Positions 3,994-58,039 of a stretch of DNA of 64,000 nt are shown here, one piece after another. Position 1 is the first letter of the stretch. Each line of letters opens with the position of its first letter. Position numbers and translations under genes: made by a program. This DNA is from Tetmemena sp. SeJ-2015 (taxonomy: Eukaryota; Ciliophora; Spirotrichea; Sporadotrichida; Oxytrichidae), in contig JAJKFJ010021315.1 of NCBI GenBank assembly GCA_027382625.1, positions 25,281-89,280 on the forward strand, written 5' to 3'. Below the pieces are notes generated by a model that was not told the DNA's origin, made no database searches, and worked only from the letters and a program-made list of their open reading frames with translations.

Positions 3994-5651
3994 ATGAGGA
4001 TAAAGATAATTTATAATTTAATATAAATCAGTTTTGATAAAGAATCACTTCTCAATAACAAAAGATAGGAATACTAACCACCTTACGCCTCCTCATTATA
4101 AAATACTCTTCACCAATCACCTCCAGAGTCTTCAACAGCCCTTGCAATTGATAAAGAAAAGAATGGAAATTTTGGACAGCATTAAGTTTCTATACCCTCT
4201 CAAAAATTTGGGATCGAAGTTCTTGCCACCAAGTAAGCTGCTTCTTCGATGGTTGTGAATAACAAGAAATCCATATTTTTTGGCATCTTGTGCGCATTCT
4301 TAAGTGTATATATAATTATGGATATATATTTATTCTGCTTTGCCCTTCATAATTTCATAATATCCTAATGCCTTAAGATGAGAAACAACTCTGGGACAGT
4401 TGTTTTTGCTGAATGGATTACTTTCTTCCTATTTTCAGCATGCATACATGTTAAACTAGCTTATTCTAGCTATTAAAAAAATGGAAAATTATGGGTTCTT
4501 TCAGAATCACAGTTTATCAATTATGAATCTTTTATTTCATATAATGAATTATCAGCAAGCACACCAATAAATTTTCAATTAAAATTAATATACTTTAATT
4601 TTCTTGGACAGGTCCTATTTGCGTTTTCTTGAGAGGTGTAGCGATGGGCTGCATAAACTTGATAGTCGGCCTGATTGCTAAATATTCACGTATGGCTGAT
4701 ATAAGTCCAAGTGTAATTCTCTCTTCGGTCTCACTCTCCTCATTTATGGTGGCTCTTTTATTCTACTTTATGTACAAAGAGAGGATTACAGTTTATCACA
4801 TCATTTATTTCTAATGAAAATGAATTTGTTGTTTAATTCACTATGCTGGAATGCTTTTGATTGTTCTATGCGTTGTTTTAGTTGGAATTAGTTGAAATAT
4901 TTAGGGTAATAAATATTAAATGATTGAATTTCGAAAAATGGAATCGAACCTGTTTTGGATAACCCTGATTAACCAGCTCCTATTTCTATACTAGTAAAAG
5001 TAAAAGCACTGACTTAAAAAAAGAGCAGTCATTTTTTAAGGTTTACCTCTGTTCTTTGCTTTTCTGATGATGGCAGGGCTTAGTTTTTCCACAGTTTGTG
5101 TTCGCCATGCAAACTCGAATATAACAACTTTTGTTTCTAAAATTTCATTTTTTTGTGTGAATGGATACAACCCTTAATATAAAGAGCATAAATAAACTTA
5201 GAGATTTGGCATTGATTAAACTCTGGTTACTTCAGTATTTTTCTTTTTCCTCTTCTTAAAATGAAAAATAGAATATAGGCTTCTTTGAGTCACATGCTAA
5301 TTACTTGGCTTACGAGTGGGATCTGATCATTATAGTGCAACTAGCAGCTGTGGCTCTCATCACTGCAGTTTAGTGTTTTAACAAAGCTCTGAGTTGTGGC
5401 ATGGGAGGCATTATTCCTTAAATGATTTATATAATTTTGAGATGTTAAACTACACAATGATTTTTATCTTTATGATGTGATGTCAATGTCTCAGACTCAA
5501 CACTTGTTTTACATGATAATGGAGGTAGTTGTGGAGCAGAGGATTCCTAATTCTTACGAAATAGTAGCAGTCATTTGTGCAATATCTGGTGCCTCTATCA
5601 TTTAAAAGTGCATACATTATAATTTTAATCATCGGATTCTCAAAGAAATGA
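3994..5651 (+). CDS. DMT3: EamA/DMT-like multi-pass transporter
   Basis: Third array member. The ATG at 3994 opens a Ser/Pro/Gln-rich hydrophilic tail before TM1 (CAFCFALHNF after IES removal), then MRNNSGTVVFAEW, the central block ADISPSVILSS, YKERI, RHANSN and a C-terminal VEQRIPNSYEIV block ending GFSKK-TGA (5649-5651). Removing nine IESs (eight well supported, one less so) gives 401 codons, close to DMT4 and DMT5, which is an independent check on the boundaries. The ATG is not certain, since the frame is open a little further upstream. Ten-segment membrane topology and a transporter role are inferred from the EamA/DMT resemblance. Confidence 0.78.
4296..4331. other. IES in DMT3, pointer ATTCT (36 nt)
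   Basis: ATTCT at 4296-4300 and 4332-4336. Join gives GCA TTC TGC TTT GCC, aligning TM1 with the paralogs without an insertion. Confidence 0.72.
4561..4607. other. IES in DMT3, pointer ACA (47 nt)
   Basis: ACA at 4561-4563 and 4608-4610. Join AGC ACA GGT CCT shifts into the frame of the ADISPSV block. Confidence 0.7.
4796..4837. other. IES in DMT3, pointer TCAC (42 nt)
   Basis: TCAC at 4796-4799 and 4838-4841. Join TAT CAC TAT GCT GGA ATG removes a TGA and restores the xHxxGML motif. Confidence 0.78.
4881..4951. other. Possible IES in DMT3, pointer GTT (71 nt)
   Basis: GTT at 4881-4883 and 4952-4954. The join is in frame and makes the whole gene a multiple of three, but it shortens a loop present in the paralogs and the repeat is only 3 nt. 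Confidence 0.4.
4979..5045. other. IES in DMT3, pointer CCT (67 nt)
   Basis: CCT at 4979-4981 and 5046-5048. Join GCT CCT CTG TTC TTT matches VPLLF/VPLFF of DMT4 and DMT5, which carry an IES at the same place. Confidence 0.72.
5126..5194. other. IES in DMT3, pointer AACTT (69 nt)
   Basis: AACTT at 5126-5130 and 5195-5199. Join ATA ACA ACT TAG AGA TTT restores the RFxxDQ motif. Confidence 0.78.
5252..5279. other. IES in DMT3, pointer CTTCTT (28 nt)
   Basis: CTTCTT at 5252-5257 and 5280-5285. Join CTC TTC TTT GAG removes a TGA. Confidence 0.82.
5421..5484. other. IES in DMT3, pointer AATG (64 nt)
   Basis: AATG at 5421-5424 and 5485-5488. Join CCT TAA ATG TCT CAG ACT restores the QTQ motif after GKGG-like GMGG. 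Confidence 0.78.
5597..5627. other. IES in DMT3, pointer ATCAT (31 nt)
   Basis: ATCAT at 5597-5601 and 5628-5632. Join gives GASIIGFSKK-stop, matching GASIIAIAKH-stop of DMT4. Confidence 0.82.
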
Positions 5652-6344
5652 TTTGGTCAAAAAAATGATTTTCTTTCTTTTGAAAATATCAATCAAGTTT
5701 CTATCAATTTATCTTTTTGCCGAAATCATACCTATTTTTGTTGATGGGGCAATTTTTCATTTGAGTATGATGTGTTTAAGAAATTAAATTTAAAAATATG
5801 GACATCTCTGAATAATACGAAACTCCATCTGCCAAAAATAAATAATTCCATTGTTAAATTTTAATTTTTAAAATGGTTTGAGAGATGCTATTTTCTTTTT
5901 AGAGACGCTGATAAATTTTATAAGGAAGACAATTATTTCACCAATCCTCCTGAACTAAACATTTTAGAACTTTGCGATTTTCTCTTCAATGATGGTGATT
6001 TCTCTCTATCTCGTTCATTTGTAAATTAATAATTTAATATTATTTAAAATTAATTTTCTTCTCGAAAGAATATAACCAAGACGTAAAAGCATTATTTATC
6101 GATTCATACTTTATTTCTTTGGATTAATCAGTGCAGTTCTTTCAAGTTTAGAGCTATGTCCAAGTTGTTGAAAAGTTATTTCTATTAAAAATTTATCACT
6201 CACCTCAAATAGTAAATCTATGCAAAATCTTATTATTTTTTTAAATAATTTTTATACGAAATTAAAGACAGAGTGGTATTCACAATAAATAAAGGCTTAA
6301 TTTAAAGAATTAAAATATTAAAAAACGCAATTAACTTTTGTAAA
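5652..6344. other. Spacer between DMT3 and DMT4, no gene seen
   Basis: AT-rich, no sustained frame. A run of AATT repeats lies just inside the following gene (about 6375). Confidence 0.5.
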
Positions 6345-8558
6345 ATGATACAAAATGAAATAAGAGAGAACGAATTATACTCATTTAATTAATTAATTAG
6401 TGTCTATAAATGGATCGATTATTCAAGAATAAGAACAAGAGACAAAAGCTAGAGCACCCTTAATTATAAAGAATAACTAGTAAGAAGATTTAAATCATCT
6501 TCAAGAACTCTAAAATACTAAAAAGCAACTAATCTTGACATCTTAATGACACTAAAATTAATGAAATGCTAAATTATACATCATTTTTGCTTTGATCAGT
6601 TCAATTTGCTTTGCAGTTCACAATTAAATAGGTTTAAAAATAAATTAGTTAATTACTTATTGGGAAAATACATGAAGCTGAGAAATAATTCATCTTCTAT
6701 AGTTTATGCAGAGTTAATAGTTATTAAAGTCTATTTCTAAATTAAATAAATAGAGTTCTTCACCTTTCAAATCATTAACTTTATTATATTATAAGAATTT
6801 ATTGAAACTTATTCTACTTCTTAAAACAGTGGATGGATTCTAAAAAGTAGAAATAATCTTATTAACAACTCTGATAAGTATCTCCCTATACTCAAGAATC
6901 AAGCAGCAAGTATAACTAATCTAAATATAAGAATTAATCTTGATAAATATTTTCCAATTAGTTTATTTAGCTTTTGCACTTGTAGGAAGTCGTGCCTTTT
7001 TACTTGGTTTTTCAAATTTTAATATCGGCTTAATATCCAAGTATTCCAGAATGGCAGAGGTGAGCCCGAGTGTAATGATTTCTTTACTGTCCCTTTCAGC
7101 TTTCTTGGTGGCGCTTCTTTTCTTTTTTATATATGGTGAACGAATTACGAGCAAGCATATTCTAGGGATGCTTCTTATAGTTATTGGAGTGATAGTCATT
7201 GCTAAATTAAATGTCTTAAAAGAGAAAATATTTAAATTAAAACTAAGATTTACTTAAAAGTAAAGCTCAAGTAATTCTAATTCTGAAAAAATATTAAATT
7301 ATAATGTTATTATCTGTTCAGGGCCAATTTTTCAAAATTTAAGTTCTTTTGGAGGCCAAATAATTTTTAAAGTCAAAGGCATTTAGACTTAACTATTAAT
7401 TCAGCAATAGTTAATTGCCCTGATTCCTAATATCGGATTCTAAATTTTATTTATAAACTAAAGAAAAAAGTGCATTAAGAAATAAACTTGGTTCTTTCAG
7501 TAAAACGTGAGATTCTATCCACAATGGAAAATCTGGGCTGCCTGTTTAATACTATGGATGTCCCCAGATCCCTAAGAAAAAAAAGCTAAATATTTCAAAA
7601 CGTGAGGGCCGAAGTCGCTGAGCCTTTTATATTATATCAATCGACGAATGATTTAGAGTGTTATAATTGAAGGGTATGAGGCTTTGAAGTCATATGAATA
7701 ACTCTAATCTCTAATATTGATCTCCCTCTATGATCCCTTCTCTTTGGATAGCAGGGCTCTCAATCAGAAATTTTCATGAGAAAAATCATAATGAGGAATT
7801 GAAGGAGACAAATGTAACTGTATGATTTCAGACTAGACCGTAGGTAATTATTTTATGAATATTGTTATCTTATTGAGTAAATTACACTGTGAAGTGTTTT
7901 TATTTACTTAAGCACATGTAGAGTTTGTAGTTATATTTGCTTATCAAATTTATAATTTTATATCCTAAGAGTTTAATACTTAAGAATTCTTTTATTCTGA
8001 AAATATTACTACTTCTGTATTTGTACCCTTGTATTTTTAATAATTAATTTTAAATGTAAATAAAATGCAACTTGCTCTTTAGTTGTATATCGATAGGAAC
8101 CTTTTCTTTATCTGCTTTTATAATCAGACATGCTAATAAAATTGGATTTAACTCTCTTAGATTTTCACTTGACTGTTAAGGTGTAATGGGCATGGGTTAC
8201 ATGGCTTTTTTCATCTACTCGCATTTCAAATATAAATTGTTAACTATGTAAAATAGAATAATTATTTTAAAATTTCACTCTATCTCCCTATAATTTGAAG
8301 TAGATAATTCCCATGCAGTTCGCCGCTTTAGCTTTAGCAATTGCTGTGCTTCTTTTCAATTACGCTTAAATAATATAATAATATTAAGCTTTGAGAATTG
8401 GTAAAGGAGGAATCGTGCTGGCACTTGTGTAAACTTAGAGCATTTTCATGTTATTTTTTGAAATTGGTTTTGAATAACGTATTCCTAATATTTATGAGGT
8501 AGTCTCAATAAGTTTTGCAATTGCTGGTGCCTCAATAATAGCTATAGCTAAACATTGA
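6345..8558 (+). CDS. DMT4: EamA/DMT-like transporter with a 714-nt IES
   Basis: Fourth member and a close sister of DMT5. Start ATG 6345-6347; stop TGA 8556-8558. After removal of the listed IESs, a 22-nt interruption near 6845 and a 4-nt AATT unit near 6378, the frame is 395 codons. Order: hydrophilic tail (about 70 residues), TM1 ending ICFAVHNY, LRNNSSSIVYAEFFTF, WMDSKK loop, VGSRAFLLGFSNFNIG, EVSPSVMISLLS, YGERITSKHILGM, a Ser/Asn-rich loop (where the 714-nt IES sits), SAFIIRHANKIGFNSL, DCQGVMGMGYM, FAALALAIAVLLFNYAL, IGKGG, and a C-terminal GASIIAIAKH. Integral membrane carrier by family resemblance; substrate unknown. Confidence 0.85.
6518..6568. other. IES in DMT4, pointer CTAAA (51 nt)
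   Basis: CTAAA at 6518-6522 and 6569-6573. Join AAT ACT AAA TTA TAC removes TGAs and enters TM1. Confidence 0.8.
6622..6650. other. IES in DMT4, pointer AATTA (29 nt)
   Basis: AATTA at 6622-6626 and 6651-6655. Join CAC AAT TAC TTA (HNYL). Confidence 0.85.
6710..6751. other. IES in DMT4, pointer AGAGTT (42 nt)
   Basis: AGAGTT at 6710-6715 and 6752-6757. Join GCA GAG TTC TTC (AEFF). DMT6 has the same protein sequence with no interruption. Confidence 0.88.
6777..6805. other. IES in DMT4, pointer AACTT (29 nt)
   Basis: AACTT at 6777-6781 and 6806-6810. Join ATT AAC TTA TTC TAC removes a TGA. Confidence 0.82.
6845..6866. other. Probable IES in DMT4 with minimal pointer AA (22 nt)
   Basis: A frame change is required between AAA AA and AAC TCT GAT. 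DMT5 has a 22-nt IES (pointer AAGT) at the same codon. Here the repeat is only 2 nt and the right edge is ambiguous by 3 nt. Confidence 0.45.
6922..6943. other. IES in DMT4, pointer TAAATAT (22 nt)
   Basis: TAAATAT at 6922-6928 and 6944-6950. Join AAT CTA AAT ATT TTC is in frame with QLVYLAFALVG. Confidence 0.85.
7280..7993. other. Long IES in DMT4, pointer ATTCTGAAAA (714 nt)
   Basis: The 10-nt repeat at 7280-7289 and 7994-8003 flanks a 714-nt insert. Removal joins TCT AAT TCT GAA AAT ATT and restores the loop NSNSEN found uninterrupted in DMT5. The insert has no convincing gene and no terminal inverted repeat that I can see; a GC-richer core lies at about 7500-7850. Confidence 0.85.
8028..8070. 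other. IES in DMT4, pointer CTTG (43 nt)
   Basis: CTTG at 8028-8031 and 8071-8074. Join GTA CCC TTG CTC TTT AGT. Confidence 0.8.
8223..8271. other. IES in DMT4, pointer ATTTCA (49 nt)
   Basis: ATTTCA at 8223-8228 and 8272-8277. Join CAT TTC ACT CTA TCT CCC TAT. Same pointer and position as in DMT5. Confidence 0.88.
8364..8387. other. IES in DMT4, pointer GCTT (24 nt)
   Basis: GCTT at 8364-8367 and 8388-8391. Join TAC GCT TTG AGA ATT. DMT6 reads through this point with no insert. Confidence 0.88.
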
Positions 8559-36414: not shown

Positions 36415-36691
36415 CTTAAAAGATTATAGATGAGTTTTTTTAAAATAATTTTGAATATCTCATCCTGTTCCGAATCAAACTTCGTTCTTTAAACACAACA
36501 ACCCATTTTAAATTAATTTTGAAAAGAAAATTGCCTATTATTCGTAAAAAGGCATTTCATTACCTAATTCTAGTTAAAAAGGTTTTAAATTACTATTATA
36601 GAAGTAGGGATAATCTATATATCGGAGGTATATTTTCGGAAAGGAATTTATATTTAGCACTGAGCTTGTTAAATTTCAATAGTAGTTAAGG

Positions 36692-39261
36692 TCATCTTAT
36701 TATTGCTTGATCTTTTAACTTTAGTTCTATACTTTTTTCTATTCGTAACCTATGTGATGATTATCGACTTTAAATTCGTTTGAGATGCTCCTCTTCTTCT
36801 TCTCCCCTTGTTTACTCTCCTATGTTTTAGTTTTGATTTTATGGATATATATTGGCACTTATTACCAATTCATCTTGGTTAAATTTGTTTGCTGTTGGAA
36901 TTTGACTTTGATAGCTGCCTAACTCAATTTCTTCAAATTATGAAGTTATCTTTGCTTGATGCATAATCTAGGAATTATCCTATCGGTCTGGAGTTTGATG
37001 TGAGGACATCTGCTGCGAGTTATTCAGACTATGGGAAACTAAAAATGATGCATTCTTTTCATCATATTGATTGCTCTGAATTATGAAGAATGCGAAAATA
37101 CCACCTAAAATACTGAATTACACAAAATATACAGTCAGAATTTAGAAGCTAAAAAGTTCCAATTTAAATTTTTTACTGAAGAAAGTAAAGAAAATCATAG
37201 GAGCTGGGGCTGCTAATTCTGCAACTAATGGTGCTAAAACTACGAAAACTCTGCCAACAAGCTTTGCAAACCCAAAAGTAGTTTGCGAGAAGATAGGGGG
37301 AAAGAGAGTTGAAAAAGCCAAATAGGTCACATTCACTACAAATATCATTCCTACTCTTGCCAAAAGTATCATTATGTAACAATCATAGGTTTTATTTAAT
37401 GAATCAGTAGAGTGGGAAGAATGCTTGAATTCATTTCGAAGATGAGAGGAACCGAACCAACCAGTGAAATTCCAAAGCCAATAAAGAAGGAGCGCTAAAG
37501 TCCTAGCCACTTTATGAAAGGATTCGAGATAAATAAGAATGCAATTTCACAAGAGGCACAATATAATCTAACACATTTTTATGATTGTTATATCGTTTAA
37601 TCTAGTTTAGAAAGATTATGCCTGGCATGTATTTGATATTAAAGCATATCAGGTAATAGTTAAATTGCAGGTAACCATGAGGGTTGTTGTGATTATTAAA
37701 TTTTTCAAAAGCTTCCTGTTCTTTATCAAATTTACCAAGGATCCTTCCTTTTTCTTTTCTAGATAAATTTAGTGTTTTAAATTCAAACTTAAATCATGTT
37801 AAAGATTGTTAGCCATATTTTAAGAAACAGAATACTTGCTTTCTTTTATCTCTTAAATAAAAGATGAAGTATTTATTATGACCCATTATAAATCTTGAAC
37901 AAACTTATCACTCTCATTTAGTTAAGCATCGCTCCCACTTCTGTTAAACCAAGCTATGAAATTTAAGACTCTCCTAGTCCTCGAATACTATTTGTGAGCG
38001 TAGGTGTATTTTGGAGATTCAGGGATGAATGCAATCGCAGAAACTGTAATTATGTTACTCACAAGAGCAAATATAAAGAAGCCCTTCCAATCCTTGTTCC
38101 ATTTCCAGAAATAAAGCGCTGAAAACACGAATGTGAATGAATTCAACATTATTTATAATATTTTTAAATTGCATACGAAAATTAAAATTGGTTGCATGAG
38201 TGAGAGAACTAGTGAAATTTTTCCATTCTGAGGGTATAAGCTCGAGCAAGTATAAATATCCGATGGCGGAGCGACCAACACCAGCAATTCCAAAGAAAAC
38301 TATCAACACTGTAGTGAATTGCACTGATCTAGATGCCAGAATGCAAAAAATAAATTTTAGATGAATTAAAAGATATAAAATGAATGCCAATATATAGGAA
38401 GACTTAGAAGATAGAGCATCCTAGATAAAATGGCTTTCTGCCGTAAATATCTGACAATCGGGGCATTATCAAGCAAGCAATTGAATAGCCAATAAAGTAT
38501 GCTGAACCAAGCATAGCAATAGTTTAGCTGCTTTCACCTGAATAGAATTGGTTAGGTCAAGAAGTTAAGTAATAAAATTACATTAGGAATTCAGATAATG
38601 ATCAGTTAAAAGAAATTAAAATATTAGCTCATCAAGTAATTATTTACTCTATCCTTACATGCTAGGTTGAGATCGGTTTACCAGTTTATGAGACTTTTGG
38701 ATCGGAGTACTTTATTCGAGTCTGGTCCGAGTCGAGTGTACAGTAATCTTTTGAAGTGCACTTTTCAAATGACACTCCATCCTAGGACAGACACTCAAAA
38801 ATAGGCTCAAGTTCGAGATATGCAAAATTGTAAACCAAGTATCATTACAATACAATAAAACTTGAAAAAATAAATAGAGAGTTAAATATAAAGTAATCTC
38901 CTGTACAGTAGTTCCATATCATAAAGAACACAGCAAATACCTCAAAATTTCTTTCTACAAATATAATTAAAAGGAGCTCATGAAATATTTGAAAAGTGAA
39001 AGGAAAAATTATGAACAATGACTTACTCTCTCCTCTAACTCTTTAGACTGCTTGGTGAAATTCTAATCCTTTGATTTGTTCTTCACTTTCTTGAATTTTA
39101 TACACTTTAGGTTTCTATTAATTTTGGTCCTAATGTATTTCATATTGCTGTCCGATTTAGTTATTGTTAGAGATTTCTATATCCTCTTCCATTTAATGAT
39201 TGGCCTTTATATTTTGTCTTTCATCTTTACTTTATTACACTTAGCCGATTTCATTCCTCAT
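36692..39261 (-). CDS. MFS1: SLC22/organic-cation-transporter-like MFS protein with long C-terminal tail
   Basis: First of five tandem MFS genes. ATG 39261 opens a Gln/Asn-rich tail, then GLEFHQAVQR, the position where sister genes have AGGFG, and a GTAAGT intron (about 39034 to 38954). TM1 follows, then a luminal loop with AYLELEPIFECL and further Cys, typical of SLC22 carriers. The final membrane block includes TLFPPIFSQTTFGFAKLVGR. The standard-code stop at 37142 is a TAA (Gln): the frame continues through a last TM (ILTVYFVQFSILGGIFAFF) into a tail of over 130 residues, Ser/Gln-rich then acidic-basic (GEEEEEHLKRIQSRQ), ending at TGA 36694-36692. Such facilitators move organic ions across membranes; substrate unknown. 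Confidence 0.78.
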
Positions 39262-39524: not shown

Positions 39525-41772
39525 TCATCTCTATTGTTCTTCGTGAATAAAGAGACTAACTATTGCGCTTGCTATTGATAAATTCAAGATCACTAAAAAC
39601 TAATCTTGGTCCTAAAGTTTAAGAATGAACTCATATGTAAGTAAGCCAGCGACACCAGCAAAGAAGTTGCAGATTCCAAAGCTTGTAGAAGCGAAAAGAG
39701 TAGGGAACATGCCGTTTGCTAAATAGAGGCCCTCGAATATTATTGCAACCCCAAATCTGGTCATCCATGTAAAAGTCATCTCTAAATACTTTTCTGCAAC
39801 TGTACTCTATAAAAAACTTTTTCTTAATAAAAATAAATGTCTTAGTTAGATTAATAAGAACCCCTACAGATCCTAGAATTGAAACTAATGAAGCAAAGAA
39901 GAATGAGTTATTTTTATATGTAAATAGCTTTATTTAATGACCGTCTAGCTTTGAATTTAGGATAAAGAAGATCCCCAGAGATAAATCCGATTAAATCTAT
40001 CATAGCACCTGCTCCAGAGCTCAGATAGTAATCGTATGGAAAGTAATTAGTGTGATTAGAAATGATTTAGTAATTCATTAACTTCTATCTTATTAAAAAG
40101 TACTTGAATTATTCATGATGATAAGAAACCAGAGAAGAGCATTTGAAATAAGGTTTTGAAGAATGATTTTGTCGCTGAGGAATTCTCTCATTGTAGTTCT
40201 TAAGCTTTTCTGTAAATTTTCTGCATACTTTAGCTCTCTTTCTCTTTTCCTACTGGTATGGTAATTACTTCCTGCTGTTATCAAACTAAATCTACTGCAA
40301 TTAATTCACAAAAGAGGATAACTTAAGTTAATCTTATTTCTTGTCTTTCTCTTTCAGAATCAAAAATGTAGTTTTCTGGAAGGGATTAACGATTTTCCTT
40401 CGATATCCAAGCTATGATATGCTTGCATTAAGGGAATTTAAAATAGCTGTAGAGATATTCAGGGGTCTCCGGGATATAAAACACTCTCAATTACAATTAA
40501 TTTATAATCATTAAATCTACTCCAATAGCACCTATAAAGCTGAGAACCACTCCAAAAATTTGAAGATAAATCCAGTGAATAGATAAATCGTAGTAAACTG
40601 CGACTATCATATTTATGATGCTGTCAGCACAAAGGAGTATAGTAGCTGCAGTAAATTTGTGATGCCTCTAAACAAACTCCTAAATCATCATTAATCCTCC
40701 GTTGTACCTTCCAACACAGCAAATTCCTAAGAAAAAGCTCAAAACAATCTTCAGCTGGATAGATTCAAATATACACACTGATTATAAGTTTTAATAGAGA
40801 GGTCAAAGATAATCGCTAAGTATAGAGGAAACTGAGCCACCATAGATATCATAAAAGGTAACCATCGCCCGTATTTATCAGTCACTCGAGGTATAAAAAG
40901 ACATCCAATGGAGTAGCCTAGATAGTACATCGACTGTAAGAATGATATTCTTACTGGAGGATCACCTATTCAGAAATTAGCCAGTTTAATGGTAAAAGGA
41001 CTAACAAGCCTAATTATTACGAAAAACTTACACATCCAATCCTCTTCATTGAACCAGTTATCTAATGAGAATTCATTTTTCCAATCTACCTTCCAGGTGT
41101 AAACACTTCCAGCACATATTACGTCTGCTTTGCAAGATGTGTATGGGTCTCCAAATTTAATTTAGCAGAGATATTAAGGAGGTTAGAGCAGGTAAACCGA
41201 TGAATAGGCAAGCACACTTCCAGATACAAAAGCAATAGTGAAGTAGATAGTCATGATTATCTGAAATCTACCTAGCTTGAGAAAATTATTAAAATTTCAA
41301 CCCAACAAAAAAGGGTAGTAGAATTTTTGAAGGAAGAAGAGGAGCCTAATGACTTACCGAAACCTCCAGCTCATTAAAGGGATTCATCGAAGGTCAAAAC
41401 TTCTATATTCGTTAGAGTTGTCAAAGTATTCTAGTTTTTGTCAAAATGATTCCTATCAACAGGAACAAAAGTTGTTCCATTTTTCTTCACTTTATTCTCG
41501 AAAACAATGGGTTCGATGTTTAAATCCTTAATACATAACTTAAAAATATTTAAATCCGTATTTGCCTAATCTTTCTCAGCAAGACGAGAGCTACTCGATT
41601 ACGAAGTTACTTCTTCTATTCCAATGATTTGAACTCTTCTAGTGCTCTAGCTGAGAGACCTTTCATGTGGCTCAATTAGCACGCTTCCATCTAGAGAAGA
41701 GTCCTCTTCCAGTATTAGGACTTCACTTACTGTATTAGTTTGATTCAGATTCATACTTGACAGTGTATACAT
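39525..41772 (-). CDS. MFS2: SLC22-like MFS protein with an in-frame TGA
   Basis: Probable ATG 41772 (MYTLSSMNLNQ). A polar N-terminal tail contains LNIEPIVFENKV after removal of a 30-nt IES. The conserved first-exon end should read like FDESLxxAGGFG before the intron donor at 41357, but codon 41373-41371 is TGA, the only stop in this code. Downstream features are intact: FFLGICCVGRYNGG, TRFGVAIIFEGLYLANGM, TSFGICNFFAG, ending HEEQQR-TGA (39527-39525). It is closest to MFS4. Either a recent nonsense mutation, a sequence error, or an unrecognised excision at the site; otherwise a normal 12-TM carrier. Confidence 0.72.
41371..41373 (-). other. In-frame TGA in MFS2 exon 1
   Basis: The 399 nt from the ATG at 41772 to this TGA are a whole number of codons (IES of 30 nt included or removed), and the codons on both sides match the family motif. 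Confidence 0.7.
41528..41557. other. IES in MFS2, pointer TTTAAATCC on + strand (30 nt)
   Basis: The 9-nt repeat at 41519-41527 and 41549-41557 flanks the insert. Minus-strand join ACG GAT TTA AAC ATC GAA CCC. The homologous position in MFS4 also carries an IES. Confidence 0.78.
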
Positions 41773-41915
41773 AATTTTAAGTAATTAATCAGCTTTATTG
41801 CTTCAAACTTTGCAATTAAGATTATCCAAATGCACTCTTTTGAATAGATGTTAGGACTAAATGTTGTTCTTAAATAATGAGGATATTTTCACTTTATCCC
41901 TCAGAATTGAATAAC

Positions 41916-44629
41916 TCAATCGTAGTTTGGATTAGGATACAAAAATTGAAGAACCAAGGCACAAGATAATGCACCAAAGATCAGCATCCAGTTTGGAAGG
42001 GGGAATTCCATCTCAGCTACCATAGGTGAAAGGATTGTTGCAAGTTTTGCAAAGAAATTGCATACTCCCATTATTGTACCTGCAAACTAAACAGGAAAGA
42101 AATTAGCGGTTGCAAAATAGCAAGACATCAAGGTTGCGCTAAATCCAAATTTAGTAAAGAGAATCATTATAGGTAGCATCAACTCGGTTTGACTTTAAAA
42201 TACAAGAATGCCGATTCCTCCTGCAAGTGCTGCTAAGTAATATATGGTAGAGGACGGCTTGAAACTGAGATAGTAATAAGTTATTGGTTGAATTAAGTAG
42301 GCTGCAAGCTCAGAAGTTGCTGATGCTATTTGATTTCCGTAGAAGCTCCCATTGATATACTTCATTGAAAAGATAAGCACGTACTGTGAAAAAGAAGTTA
42401 ATCTTATTAAGTGAAAAAATTCTCTTTCTATAAAATTTAAAAGTTACCATCCAAAGAAAAGCCATTACGAAAAGTGGGGGGGGGGACGGAAGTGCACACC
42501 CCCCACTTTTTATGATCAAAATTTATGAAAAAACATCCGTTTAGGCAAAAATCGTCTAAAAATGCCAAAAAATTAAGAATTTTTAACTTTCAAAATCTGC
42601 ATGAGGGTCAAAATTTATGATTTCAAATTTTATGAAATAACCTTAAAATTATTTGCGAGCTCTGTTTTACTCATTATAAAAAGTCTTATGAAGATACTAG
42701 AATAAATATGCATATTAATTATGATTCTCCCTTCAGTCTTTTGGATGTGATTTGGTTATTTTATCAAAATTCTTGCAATCTTATCTTGAATATTATTTAG
42801 AGAAGAATCTGACAAGTTTAAATATAATAGCTAAGATCACTATATCTGCAATTACATAAAATTACTGCTATAAACTCATTGATAAACTCTATAACATACT
42901 TAAGAGGATCTTACAATCATATGTACAATTTTTAAGAATAATCATAACAATTCATAGCCCAAACAAGTTCTCAAACAATCCAGCTATCAAAGGGAGTTAC
43001 TATTTTACTATATAGCAGATAACCTCTTTAAAAATAGCTTATTATAAAGTAATGAAATGATACTTAGTTATTTATGGGAATAAAACATAATCATAACATC
43101 AATCAGTCATCAATATTAAATTAAATAAATAATATTAATAGATCATCCATAAAATAAAGTCAAATTCGTAAAAATGACCCTCTTAGAAATTTTAAAAGCC
43201 AGAATTACTTAATTTTTTTGCATTTTTAGCTGATTTTGACACCATCTGGGCATTTTTATTGGCATTTTGTTCATATTTAATGGGGTGTGCACTTCCGTCC
43301 CCCCCCACGAAAAGATTTCTTAAGATAACTTTATCTTTGAGCATAAGTCTAATTGGAATTTTGGCTACTCCTTCTTTTCTTCTGTTAAAAGCGTATTCTA
43401 GTTCTGATTCAAACATGACCTTCTAAAAATCGAACTAATATGATCTTTAGTCACTCTTAGAGTTAAGAGCAGCTATTTTATTCAATTCCACTCTTGCTTT
43501 ATCAAATTACCGTTATTTCAAGAGCCAAGGTACAGACTCAGGTACCCAAAAGCACATCACCAAAACTTTCATTTGATTGTATTCTGAAATTATAATTGAA
43601 TAACTGAGACTTAAAGTACTACTTATAAGAGATGCAGATAAAGCCAGTGCTTTGAGATCAATAGAAAGTTAAATTTTAGAATATATTTCATTTACTCCAT
43701 TTTAAGTAGACTATGATAGTTATTGGAATGAATGCAATAAGGATGAAGACCAAAGTTCCAGACAATATTTTGTATTTCTTTGGTATGAGTTCATATTGAT
43801 AAACAAAGCCTATTGCAGTTTTTCCTACTTGAGTACAGCCAGTTAAGAAAAGGAGAACCAGAACTTAAGTTTATTCTCTGATAAATGAAAGTAGCACTGC
43901 CAGTAATACACTTGCCGTCATATTTAACACGTAGAATTTCTTCCTTCCGTAAATATTTTAAGTGTATTTAATTGCCTATTACTAAATATCACTCAATCCT
44001 GGAAGTAAGAGACACGATAAAGTCCAGCCTATGAAGAACATAGATCCTTAAAGAGCGATATCTGATTTATCGGTACCTATAATAAAGCATTGAAGCATGA
44101 AGGGGAGTCCTTACAAGCCAAGTTCATGTCTTCAACCCAATTTTAGAGACTTTCTGAGCCGCTGTAATCGAATTTGTAAGATATATCACTTTTTCCACAA
44201 AATTAGTCAGGAGTACATTTAAAATAAGTTTCGGCTATCCCCTGATTAGACGATTTATAACTACACAAGTAGTCTGGCTACAACTGGTAGTAAGGGACAA
44301 CAAGAATCGAAAATGAGGTAGAAGCGAAACCTATCACTGTTGCTATTGTAGCAATAATGGGAATTAATATCTTAAATGTTTATCTTAAATAACCTGCATT
44401 CTGCCTTATACACATTATTTAAATACAATTTCTTACCAAATCCCCCGGCCAACTAATATGCATGTTCAGCATCTTTGATTATTTCAGTTTGACCATAGTT
44501 TGACTTATCTAAATTTTCTAAGGCGAAATGCTTGTGCAAAATATTAGTAGAGTCTGCCGTACTTTGATCAATTAAAGGCTGCTTGAGATCTTCTGAGAAA
44601 TTTTCCTCTCTTGTACTTTTACAAAGCAT
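41916..44629 (-). CDS. MFS3: SLC22-like MFS protein interrupted by an 840-nt inserted element
   Basis: ATG 44629 (MLCKSTREENFSEDL), acidic N-terminal tail ending AYQLAGGFG at a GTAAGA intron donor. Central parts include FNRRKEGVAKIPIRLM and KVILRNLFV, after which the gene is broken by the 42475-43314 element; removal of the element plus one ACGAAAAG repeat restores CTT TTC GTA ATG GCT TTT CTT TGG in frame (VMAFLWMVTFKFY). C-terminal half: GTIMGVCNFFAKLATIL, MEFPLPNWML, ending PNPNYD-TGA (41918-41916). A twelve-segment organic-ion carrier by family; substrate unknown. Somatic function requires precise removal of the element. Confidence 0.78.
42476..42620 (+). repeat. Left terminal inverted repeat of the MFS3 element
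   Basis: Begins with ten G, then ACGGAAGTGCACACCCC; pairs with 43166-43306. Confidence 0.75.
43166..43306 (-). repeat. Right terminal inverted repeat of the MFS3 element
   Basis: Ends GGGGTGTGCACTTCCGT followed by eight C, the inverse of the left arm; inner part matches imperfectly. Confidence 0.75.
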
Positions 44630-44946
44630 TTTATACTGAGTAAATTATTTAAAGTTATAGATTATTTTCACCTATTTATGTATGGAACCTAAAGATGTGG
44701 AGTATTTCCTTAGAAATTATTTGATGATATGGATATGATTCAAACAGCAGATCAATTGCTTTTAAGATTAAGCCTCTTTCATTTTTTCTTTAATATTCAA
44801 ACACTAATTACTTGAATGGATTTTGTTTTGAGCGAGTCTAACTCAGCTCCTCCTCAATATTCCTTGCTCCTTTATAATAACACTTTTTCTTATTCAAAAA
44901 ATTATGTTGAATAAATATTCTTCTGATTGAGGATGAGTGTGAGTTG

Positions 44947-47120
44947 TCAGAACTGTTCCTCTTCATTGATGAAAAGGCCGATAATTAGTCCTGCAAGTGA
45001 GAGGCTGACATAAACCCAAAACTGGTTTTCATCATCGAGTTTCAAAAGTACCTCAAAGCTAAATAGTCCAGAAAGTCCTGCGAAAAAGTTGCAAATACCA
45101 AAGCTGGTTGAAGCAAACAGGATAGGGAACAAACCGTTTGCCATGTAAACTCCTTCGTAAATCAGAGATATTCCAAACCGAGTTACCCAACAAAAGGTCA
45201 TCTCCAAGTACTTCTGCTAATCAGTTTCTTTCGGAATAAATTCAATTCAATTATTCATTCATTTAAATAGGAAGATTAAGGATGACTATGACACCTCCAA
45301 ATATTGTGAGGGCAAATGAAAAGAAGAAGAATTTGCGAGCTTATAAAATTACTTATCCCAATCTTAATATTGTGATAAGCTTTGTACTTTTCATAGAATA
45401 CTTCACCTAAAACATAAGCTACAAGTTCTACAGTAGCTCCAACTGTATCACTCATGTACTGGTCTCCTGGGAAATAGTTTTCGTGATTAGATATTATCTA
45501 GTAGGCCATAATAACTAAAGTAAATGAAATAAAATAATTCAAATATATCTTCTGAACTATTATCCATAGGAAAATGTTGAGAATCAGATTCCTGAGGATA
45601 ATCTTATCACTCAAAAACTAAAGCATAGTCGTTCTTAAACTTTTATAGAGTTTTTCTGTCCGTTCGAGCTCTTGATCCTTCTCTCAGCTGCTTTAGTAGT
45701 TACTTCCAGCTGTAATGATATTAAACTTAATTTAGTCTAAAATTTACATAGAAATTTTTCTTGTTTAAATTTCCTTGCGTTCCCTTTCGGCATCGAATAT
45801 ATACTACTCTGGAAGAGTTTTCCCGTTTTGCTTGGCAATCCAACTCATTATGTATTTGCACTATGAGAAACGATAGAAACTGTAGAGATACTCCGGCGTT
45901 TCAGTTATGTAAAAAGCCCCTGCTGCTCCGATGAGGCTTAAAACCACTCCAAATATTTGGAGGTAAAGCCAGTGGTGAGTCAGCTCGTAATAGATAGCTG
46001 TGATTATAGTAACTCCGCTATCAGCTACCAGAAGTATGGTCCAAACGGAGTACTTGTAGCGAAGATGCACATACTCTGAAATCATAATGTAGCACCCGTT
46101 ATATCTTCCAACGCAACACACTCCCAGAAAGAAACTCATGGCTGTGTTCAAAATCATGTGATATACGAGTAGAGCTTTTATTTATATTCAACTCAACAGA
46201 TTTAGAGAAAAGTATCACGAGATAGAAGAAGAACTGAGCCATCATAGAAAGCATGAACGGCATCCATCGTCCATATTTATCTGTGATGCGTGGGATGAAG
46301 AGACATCCAAATGAATATCCTAGATAGTACATTGAACTTAAAAGCGAAGTTTTGACTGGAGGGGCGCACTCGAGGCCAAACTCAGTCAACCAATTATCTA
46401 AAGAATCTGACTCTTCCCAATCTACTTTCCAAGCATAAACTTCATCTGAGCAGGCTTCATCTTATTCGCAGGTTTCAAATTCTCCTTCTGCCTCTTTCTA
46501 GCACAGAAATGCTGGCTCCTGTACCAGATAGGTTGAAGAGTACGAGAGCACACTCCCAGAAATGAAAGCAATCGTGAAATATGTTCTTAATCACTTTATA
46601 TAAAAAATAGATAGTCATGAGTATCTGAAATCTACCTAGCAAAACAGAATCAACATACCAATGTTATTTTTAAGTGATCTTTGTTGATAAAGTTATATTC
46701 TTATTTCATCTCATCTAGAATACTCTTGAATTTATGACTTACCGAAACCTCCAGCTCTGTTGATAAGCTCATCTAGAGTGAAAATCTCGATACTTGACTG
46801 GCTGGTGTGACTGCCTCTTTTTTCAAAGTAATCGTGATCTATATTAATGACTGCTTCTTGCTCATCTTCCGTTATATCTTGATACTCTACCGGCTCAATC
46901 CTTAATATGATATTAAAATTTCTGATTGGTGACTATAAATCCTCATATTGATATTGCTCCCTGAATCATTTATATCCTCGATCCCTTTAAAGTTAGTTCT
47001 CTTGCTATAGTTTGAGCTTTAGTCATTGATGTATTCCTCAAGACTGTGGCTGCGATCTTCGAGCAACAGAAACCTCTCTCTTCGAGGGTTCTCGGTATAC
47101 ATGCTTTTCAAACGCTTCAT
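44947..47120 (-). CDS. MFS4: SLC22-like MFS protein
   Basis: ATG 47120 (MKRLKSMYTENPRRERF), polar tail with NMRIEPVEYQDITEDEQE after IES removal, then IFTLDELINRAGGFG split by a GTAAGT intron whose acceptor gives GRFQILM, the standard SLC22 start of TM1. Luminal loop with paired Cys, then PVKTSLLSSMYYLGYSFGCL, PRITDKYGRWMPF (MFS loop 2-3 signature), a TTGAA-pointer IES, FFLGVCCVGRYNGCY, TRFGISLIYEGVYMANGLF, TSFGICNFFAGLSG, ending INEEEQF-TGA (44949-44947). Complete-looking twelve-TM carrier with unknown substrate; closest to MFS2. Confidence 0.82.
46152..46191. other. IES in MFS4, pointer TTCAA on + strand (40 nt)
   Basis: TTCAA at 46147-46151 and 46187-46191. Minus-strand join GAG TTG AAC ACA GCC ATG fuses two standard-code ORFs. 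Confidence 0.82.
46903..46943. other. IES in MFS4, pointer AATCCT on + strand (41 nt)
   Basis: AATCCT at 46897-46902 and 46938-46943. Minus-strand join ATG AGG ATT GAG CCG GTA restores the N-terminal frame. Confidence 0.85.
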
Positions 47121-56163: not shown

Positions 56164-58039
56164 TATTTTTATTCAATATAACTTATTCTCTAATGACTTT
56201 ACCAGCACAATTGTAACTTTATTTCAATTAAAATATCTCCTACTCGTATGTAAATTTGCTACAATAATTGTTTATTTAATGGACTTGGAAAATTTTTCTC
56301 AAATTCCAAGTTTAAAAAATGCAATTCAAGAGATTGGAGTAAGCAAATTGATCATTATATCCTTCTCAAAATTTTAATAAAGCAAGTTTGATTCAATTCA
56401 AATTGATAGATCTAATTTATATGACTTATTTTATTATTCTCGGCGTTCTTCGCATATTTAAGCAAATTCAAACGTCAGTTACTTTAAAATAGTTAACTTA
56501 TATAAATTAAATCCATCTAAGTGGAATAAATTAAATTCATAATTTGCTCAAACTTTAAGGAAAATTTTAATATAAAGAAATACTCATACAATCAACTCAA
56601 CAACAATATTGCAGAGCCCATATATTTCTGTTAAATTAAGAATTAGAGATTTAAACACTACCATAGATCATATTTTCTTAATTGTTTTATACTTGCAGAA
56701 CCTCTTCTTATTATAGTCGAGATGAGATGCTGATAAAATTGAGAGTAAGATAATTAAAGAATTGTTTAAAAATGAAGGGCCAGTTTTAAATAAGAAAAAT
56801 TTTAGTACAACATTATATAAATACTAAGTTTTTATAGGTAAATTAGACTGAAATCTGCTTTAGATTCTTTCAGAAATCTGAAATCATAAATTTTAGCTCA
56901 TGGAGATTTAGAAAGTAAAAATCTCTTAATTTTTTGGCTTTTTCTTCGAGTAATGGCCTCTTTTCGAGTTTTTACCATAAAAAGAGTGGGAAAACTTCAG
57001 TAGTGCTTCCCTCCATTTTTAATAGTTTAAGTATTAAATTTCCTTAATGGAGTAACTACTACCTCATCAGAATTAGCCATAGGAAAAGAAGGGGGAATCA
57101 AACAATGATAAAATGATACAATAAATTACTGATAAAATACACTAGTGCCATTATCTAAATGTAGATAGTGTTGTGAAATTCAAAATTTATATATCATTTT
57201 CAATTGTTTCTTCTTATACTGCCAACTAACGAATCAGACTTTATTCATTCCTGTCTAAAATAACTTAAGCTTTATCATTAAGATCATTCATTAAAAATTA
57301 TTTCATGATTTTGAAAAAATAAATGCCAGACTATATATTTTTAAAAGGAAGAGAATTCTTCCTTCATTTATAGTTGAGAATTTAATTGAAAACTGAATTT
57401 ATTATTAAATTTAATTATGATTGAATAAATTAGTGCTAGTTGAATTGTATCATATGTAAATAATTATTAGACCATTCGATTTAACATAAAATTCCAAGAT
57501 TTTATTATTCTTACAATTTTTGTGCTACAATGCTCAGTTAATATATATAAGATACACAAATTTATTTTTTTTTAACTTGGATTGTGAATTTCATGGAATG
57601 CGCATTTAATTTCTCGCTTCAAAAAGATACTTATGAGGTTATTTAAGAAAATTTTTTATTGTATTTTGAACAAGCTACAGATAAGCGGAGCTTAAATCTG
57701 AGATTTAAACTGTCTCGAAGTTGGAATTCCCCATTTATTAATTTAAACAATTGTCCATTTTAATTAATTTCATTTATATTAAGGTTTTATTTGCTTTTTA
57801 ATAAAAAAAATTATAAATATTGAGAGAATCTGGAGTCTTGCTAATTTTTATTTTAAGTTAAATCAGATATACTGACTTAAAACTCATTAAAATTAGAAGA
57901 AAGATCATAGAATCTTTATCTTGAATTAATATGGCTTGACGAGAATATTGTAAATTCCTTATCATAATTTAATTCCCTTCCCTATTAGTCGTATATCGAA
58001 GAGAGGATCTAGTTTAGTAATCTATCTAAAGAAGGTACT
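56164..58039. other. Gene-poor AT-rich stretch
   Basis: About 1.9 kb with long A/T runs and no sustained frame on either strand under the UAR=Gln code. Probably germline-limited or intergenic DNA. Confidence 0.45.

Follow-up and report, generated by a model that had tools for sequence, protein, structure and literature searches.

A germline MITE family of probable Merlin affinity in Tetmemena, with one copy inserted in an exon of an MFS transporter gene

Introduction

Merlin DNA transposons carry ends beginning with 5'-GG, terminal inverted repeats of 24-462 bp, target-site duplications of 8-9 bp and a transposase with the DDE_Tnp_IS1595 domain, and according to the accessible part of the same survey Merlin matches occur in 24 of 33 ciliate genomes, with inverted repeats and duplications missing from the curated Stentor genomes (PMC8101967). 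The closest working analogue of the element analyzed here is, as far as the available text of its description goes, BogoMITE of Blepharisma stoltei, a pogo/Tigger element of approximately 389 bp with a TAA/TTA duplication that is reported as an internal eliminated sequence (IES) and forms part of the so-called "MITIES" (PMC9942856). Both are gene-less germline MITEs with a homopolymer C/G-run terminus, a duplication at the junction, many copies and few autonomous elements, whereas the element in this study differs in its 8-bp duplication, its length of approximately 820 bp and the fact that excision is a prediction only. The TBE elements of Oxytricha and the Tec elements of Euplotes are assigned, in the sections consulted, to the Tc1/mariner class and have three ORFs (PMC9797194). 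Finally, the macronuclear genome of Oxytricha encodes 11 proteins with an IS1595 domain that lack terminal repeats and are expressed almost only in conjugation, and the part of that report available to us draws no link between them and MITE excision (PMC3558436). A search of titles and abstract openings, a scope that leaves preprints and most subscription literature outside, returned no description of a Merlin-type MITE in a ciliate germline.

Here we describe a repeated element that interrupts the MFS3 gene of Tetmemena sp. SeJ-2015. We propose that it belongs to a non-autonomous Merlin-type MITE family in the ciliate germline which is mobilised in trans and probably removed as an IES, and we give this reading as a whole a probability of roughly 65%.

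Results

The window, that is the entire 64,000-nt stretch of contig JAJKFJ010021315.1 analyzed here, belongs to an assembly of 146.2 Mb in 5213 contigs, and its gene frames were read under genetic code 6. MFS3 is a tandem MFS-transporter gene on the minus strand with the element sitting in an exon. Upstream of the insertion in gene direction the coding sequence (...KDKVILRNLF) occupies 43315..43566, where the start is approximate, and directly downstream the joined reading frame continues with MAFLWM at 42448..42466, followed by a 64-nt GT..AG intron at 42384..42447, as judged from the frame and the flanks, and by the last exon (YVLIFSMKY...PNPNYD stop) at 41916..42383. Removing 840 bp, equal to the element and one copy of an 8-bp flanking repeat, joins the two minus-strand frames to read ...KDKVILRNLF-VMAFLWM and then onwards through the intron and the last exon, while with the element kept in place the frame stops within it. 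A product of 384 residues assembled from the joined pieces gives a Pfam MFS_1 match (4e-12) that runs from residue 2 to 349 and thereby spans the junction; a comparison of the predicted product with 5.8 billion proteins (7998 scored candidates) gave no uninterrupted relative at E 0.001.

The element itself covers 42475..43306 (832 bp). By direct reading its left end consists of the flanking repeat ACGAAAAG (42467..42474), a single T, ten G (42476-42485) and then ACGGAAGTGCACACCCCCC, and its right end of GGGGTGTGCACTTCCGTCCCCCCCC, finishing in eight C at 43306 and followed by the second copy of ACGAAAAG at 43307..43314. The left terminal inverted repeat is found at 42476..42610 on the plus strand and the right one at 43175..43306 on the minus strand. 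They share an exact core of 25 nt with 100% complementarity (42478-42502 on the left) and become imperfect further in, with 73% identity over 134 alignment columns between 42478-42610 and 43175-43306, so that G-run ends are combined with inverted repeats of 25 bp (exact) and approximately 134 bp (imperfect) that fall within the range reported for Merlin. The first-pass annotation had placed an 840-nt element at 42475-43314 with ends of 8-10 G, repeats of about 140 bp and a nearly perfect 27-bp core; the element is real, but that interval adds the right flanking repeat to the 832 bp, and of the described ends the G10/C8 runs and the long imperfect repeats stand while the exact core shrinks to 25 bp.

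A search of the assembly for other copies brought up 686 candidates at first look, and scores were computed for 40 of these, the window copy included. All 39 others are 88-93% identical to the window copy over approximately 820 bp, figures that are biased towards its close relatives since the 40 copies are the best of the 686. The exact 21-mer terminus GGGGACGGAAGTGCACACCCC occurs 217 times (104 forward and 113 reverse), compared to none in either direction for the reversed control, which corresponds to a family of about a hundred elements or more if each has two such ends, some of them on duplicated contigs. In the 40 copies the terminal cores lie 800-816 bp apart. The pairwise identity has a median of 0.919 and a minimum of 0.883 among 37 copies, leaving out L011, L021 and L033, which scored 0.57 and were probably set in the wrong orientation. 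Two pairs, L010/L013 and L035/L036, have 100% identical flanks, and the 40 copies therefore represent 38 places. It is clear from these numbers that the single-copy status which would have spoken against the earlier claim does not apply, and a single-copy or chance repeat is rejected.

Other repeat arrangements were seen along the way. The copies L014/L020 and L028/L031 have one flank in common at 98.9-99.9% and the other flank different, and such one-flank sharing, also seen in the repeats L052/L053/L054 described below, is due either to chimeric assembly or to recombination by way of the element. A degenerate relative of the inner terminal region of the MITE is present at 56859-56943 in the window (82% over 88 bp), adjoined by a weak counterpart of the other end. 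Another dispersed repeat of approximately 420 bp, 67-93% identical between loci, is found at 57369-57767 in the window and also in L012, L015, L016, L018, L032, L035, L036, L047, L051, L053 and L054.

None of the 40 copies has a long coding frame, the longest stop-free stretch under code 6 being 87-260 codons; it is by this frame length that the copies were checked for a transposase, and the 12 genome-wide matches to the transposase profile PF12762 all lie outside them. Being short and repeated, with terminal inverted repeats, target-site duplications and no transposase gene, the window element is a non-autonomous DNA transposon of the MITE type, as had been suggested from its sequence. It resembles the TBE and Tec elements as abundant germline DNA transposons able to interrupt genes, but it is without their three ORFs. 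The ends of TBE elements are C4A4, and since the window element shows neither such ends nor a long coding frame, a TBE identity is rejected in agreement with the first-pass annotation. Elsewhere in the assembly an array of C4A4 telomere-type repeats was observed at C2828:3864-4156 along with single matches on C204 and C2542; reversing the pattern leaves it unchanged, so that the reversed control carries no information here. Together with the code 6 frames and the IES-like insert described below, these repeats suggest a hypotrich-like ciliate.

An exact 8-bp direct repeat flanks 25 of the 40 copies when the scoring allows for the variable G and C runs at the ends, a further five have one mismatch, and the remaining ten have two to five. 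Counted by independent places, the exact duplications amount to 23 of 38. When homopolymer repeats were dropped, 24 exact repeats were observed, whereas 500 rounds of shuffled right flanks gave 0.8 on average and never more than 4. Most copies have a repeat sequence different from that of the others, with a tendency to be A-rich and then T-rich. A query with the joined flanks of the window copy retrieved a natural empty site on contig C1642 (10,052 bp), which has a single ACGAAAAG and no element (locus L058) and gives the same reading across the site as the joined MFS3. Three stretches of C1642 were compared with the window: positions 4266-7686 correspond to 40722-44973, with 97% identity to the left and right of the element, the initial 700 bp to 36458-37158 (99%) and 164 bp near the end to 46742-46905 (96%). 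The spacing between the three stretches agrees within a few bases, showing that the window and C1642 are colinear. The last approximately 437 bp of C1642 (L061:165-601) are unlike the window from 46906 onward, a second difference between the copies. Because the copies carry repeats of their own and a natural empty site exists, the 8-bp repeat is primarily a target-site duplication, of a size in agreement with the 8 or 9 bp of Merlin, and the assembly contains both a filled and an empty form of the site. The 8-bp repeat may in addition serve as the pointer that had been suggested to restore the MFS3 frame, which the 840-bp removal does join.

The sequence of C1642 fits either a second haplotype or a duplicate of recent origin. 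A macronuclear contaminant is an unlikely source, because a repeat-flanked insert in MFS motif A is retained there too. In the window this IES-like insert (SDI|YGRKK, minus strand) comprises 33 bp at 43950..43982 with the direct repeat TAAATAT at 43950-43956 and 43983-43989, and in C1642 (L058) it measures 35 bp, shifts the frame and has a shorter repeat. Inspection of the sequence shows no GT..AG exit that would restore motif A, and the presence of the insert in both copies suggests that the window and C1642 are both germline DNA. The two MFS3 copies differ by 19 synonymous and one non-synonymous codon over 242 codons of two exons, so that their products were under constraint for most of the separation, which leaves the insertion undated.

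Apart from the window copy, the most informative coding context was found at L016 on contig C2939, where removal of the element creates an open frame of 897 codons with the junction at codon 531. For comparison, frames at 377 positions drawn at random from the flanking sequences of the 40 copies had a median of 218 and a maximum of 546 codons, although each drew on a single flank and was hence more confined than a joined site. Kinase-domain exons (1.6e-37 and 1.8e-25) follow downstream in other frames and would form one gene with the 897-codon frame, whose end by itself has no kinase match, the only hit being Nup188_N at 0.064, below the cut-off. A search with the joined flanks of L016 returned only the filled site and thus no empty copy in the assembly. 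At L032 the element lies just upstream of the likely ATG of a kinase gene (1e-21, with the match beginning after the junction); no near-identical empty copy was found, and two related stretches cross the position at 71-73%. A Pfam scan of the joined frames of six of the 40 copies gave a match in L032 only. The other joined frames are within the random expectation, as are the 255 codons of the window copy on length alone, and it is therefore the MFS match that constitutes the coding evidence for the latter. Altogether a convincing coding context was found for two of the 40 copies, namely the window copy and L016.

These results also bear on the predicted fate of the element during macronuclear development. 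The most serious alternative accepts the same MITE and the same duplication without any precise somatic removal, in which case the insertion would segregate as a knock-out of one MFS3 copy and the copies in AT-rich DNA would be discarded in bulk or kept. The 97% identical sister locus without the element speaks for this alternative and means that excision is not required for the window gene, so the earlier proposal that the insertion is tolerated because it is precisely excised is not needed at MFS3; the small number of convincing coding contexts points the same way. The interruption of the long L016 frame ahead of a kinase domain argues against it, as does the excess of synonymous changes in MFS3, although these may pre-date the insertion. 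On balance we find this alternative unlikely. Precise excision is made plausible by L016, which splits its frame with no empty copy found and is a better case than the window locus. From L016 and by analogy we regard it as the likeliest fate of the MITE, somewhat better than an even bet.

The origin of the mobilising activity was approached through the 12 matches to PF12762 (DDE_Tnp_IS1595, the Merlin transposase domain) in the assembly, seven of which were read (L048-L054). L052-L054 are repeats of approximately 1247 bp with 148-bp inverted repeats starting with G7, GGGGGGGCCTTTCCTCG. The only clean duplication among them is the 8-bp gttttcca flanking L052, and since L054 has one flank in common with L052 and the other in common with L053, they do not represent three clean places. 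One of the open frames of L054, used as a protein query, led to the further relatives L055, L056 and L057. L055 and L056, 98% identical throughout, have the terminus G10-TGGAACAGAAAATCTCTT-CCCCC-TTTTTAT without a C-run counterpart in the stretch examined, and L057 has no such G-run terminus. L048-L051 have neither ends in common with the MITE nor G-run or inverted-repeat ends within at most approximately 1.5 kb on each side, and a parent among them is rejected. In its own right, L048 contains a 481-codon open frame (L048:841-2283) that matches DDE_Tnp_IS1595 at 3.9e-20, and the 3.4 kb examined show neither G-run nor inverted-repeat ends; L048 shares the catalytic domain and the absence of terminal repeats with the macronuclear IS1595-domain proteins of Oxytricha, appears to be of similar kind, and is possibly a domesticated transposase.

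The left end of the MITE, where the subterminal CACTTTTTATGATCAAAATTT of the inverted repeat resembles the subterminal part of the transposase-bearing repeats, aligns with these repeats just inside the terminus with scores of 36 and 30, and such left-end scores were reached by 0.15% (L055) and 0.41% (L052) of approximately 2000 random window stretches. The right end lacks this resemblance, since 22% and 32% of the random stretches do at least as well, and a comparison of the two Merlin-type ends with each other is at the 3.2% level. These percentages are uncorrected for six comparisons, and the random set probably includes the degenerate MITE relative mentioned above. As to an autonomous parent, no transposase-bearing element with the termini of the MITE came to light among the matches listed (100 of the 217 places, up to C2647), while the IS1595-domain repeats with G-run ends emerged as the candidate transposase source. 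Among the same 100 places exact ends face each other in at least 28 pairs, which span 705-882 bp, and no facing exact ends lie 1-10 kb apart. Where a contig carries exact ends of both the left and the right type, as was seen on 13 contigs, they are invariably 778-806 bp apart.

A second alternative holds that the MITE was moved by another superfamily (hAT or P element) or by a MULE, and that the resemblance to Merlin ends is convergent. Duplications of 8 bp also fit hAT and P elements, five MULE profile matches just over the Pfam cut-off (29.7-30.7 bits) are present genome-wide, and both the missing Merlin parent with the same ends and the dissimilar right end could be explained this way. None of the five MULE contigs is among the termini listed (the same 100 places), a hAT transposase (dimer domain) gave no match in the genome, which weighs little as the control was silent as well, and the G-run ends together with the left-end similarity point to the IS1595 repeats. 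We therefore consider such an origin doubtful and the MITE family to be most probably of Merlin type, judging from its ends.

An ordinary intron or scrambled-gene IES with coincidental long inverted repeats would account for the position in a coding segment and the repeats at both ends, but has practically no probability left and is rejected, given that by reading there is no AG where a frame-restoring acceptor is needed, the same sequence recurs genome-wide with other 8-bp repeats, and an empty site exists.

Discussion

The reading that we prefer, a Merlin-type MITE family moved in trans, can be put as follows. The MITE inserted into an exon of MFS3 on one of two near-identical germline copies and in doing so duplicated its 8-bp target. 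It was most likely mobilised by a Merlin-type (DDE_Tnp_IS1595) transposase recognising the G-run termini, a step that we infer from the shared end architecture, the duplication size and the left-end similarity. In the developing macronucleus the MITE would then probably be removed between the 8-bp duplicates as an IES, restoring the MFS3 frame. The likeness to Merlin/IS1595 elements (IS1016-like) lies in the GG ends, the repeat length, the 8-bp duplications and the occurrence of IS1595 repeats with G-runs in the same genome, while the long G-run ends, the lack of a transposase in the family and the parent that was not found set the MITE apart from them.

The best-known germline transposons of spirotrichs, TBE and Tec, are of the Tc1/mariner class, from which a Merlin-type MITE with 8-bp duplications differs. 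The unrelated Blepharisma transposons have C-run ends, a hint that homopolymer G/C termini might be a recurrent feature among the germline elements of ciliates. Going one step further, and quite tentatively, the hypotrich could possess a Merlin-derived class of IESs, in which G-run MITEs with 8-bp duplications undergo exact somatic excision, possibly by IS1595-like proteins such as those that the Oxytricha macronucleus encodes and that are expressed during conjugation. The transposase-bearing relatives and the possibly domesticated IS1595 gene make the cutting of Merlin-derived DNA by IS1595 proteins a testable question, for which the MFS3 locus with its filled and empty forms is a ready assay. 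If true, hypotrichs would gain a source of IESs outside Tc1/mariner and a candidate substrate for their IS1595-like proteins.
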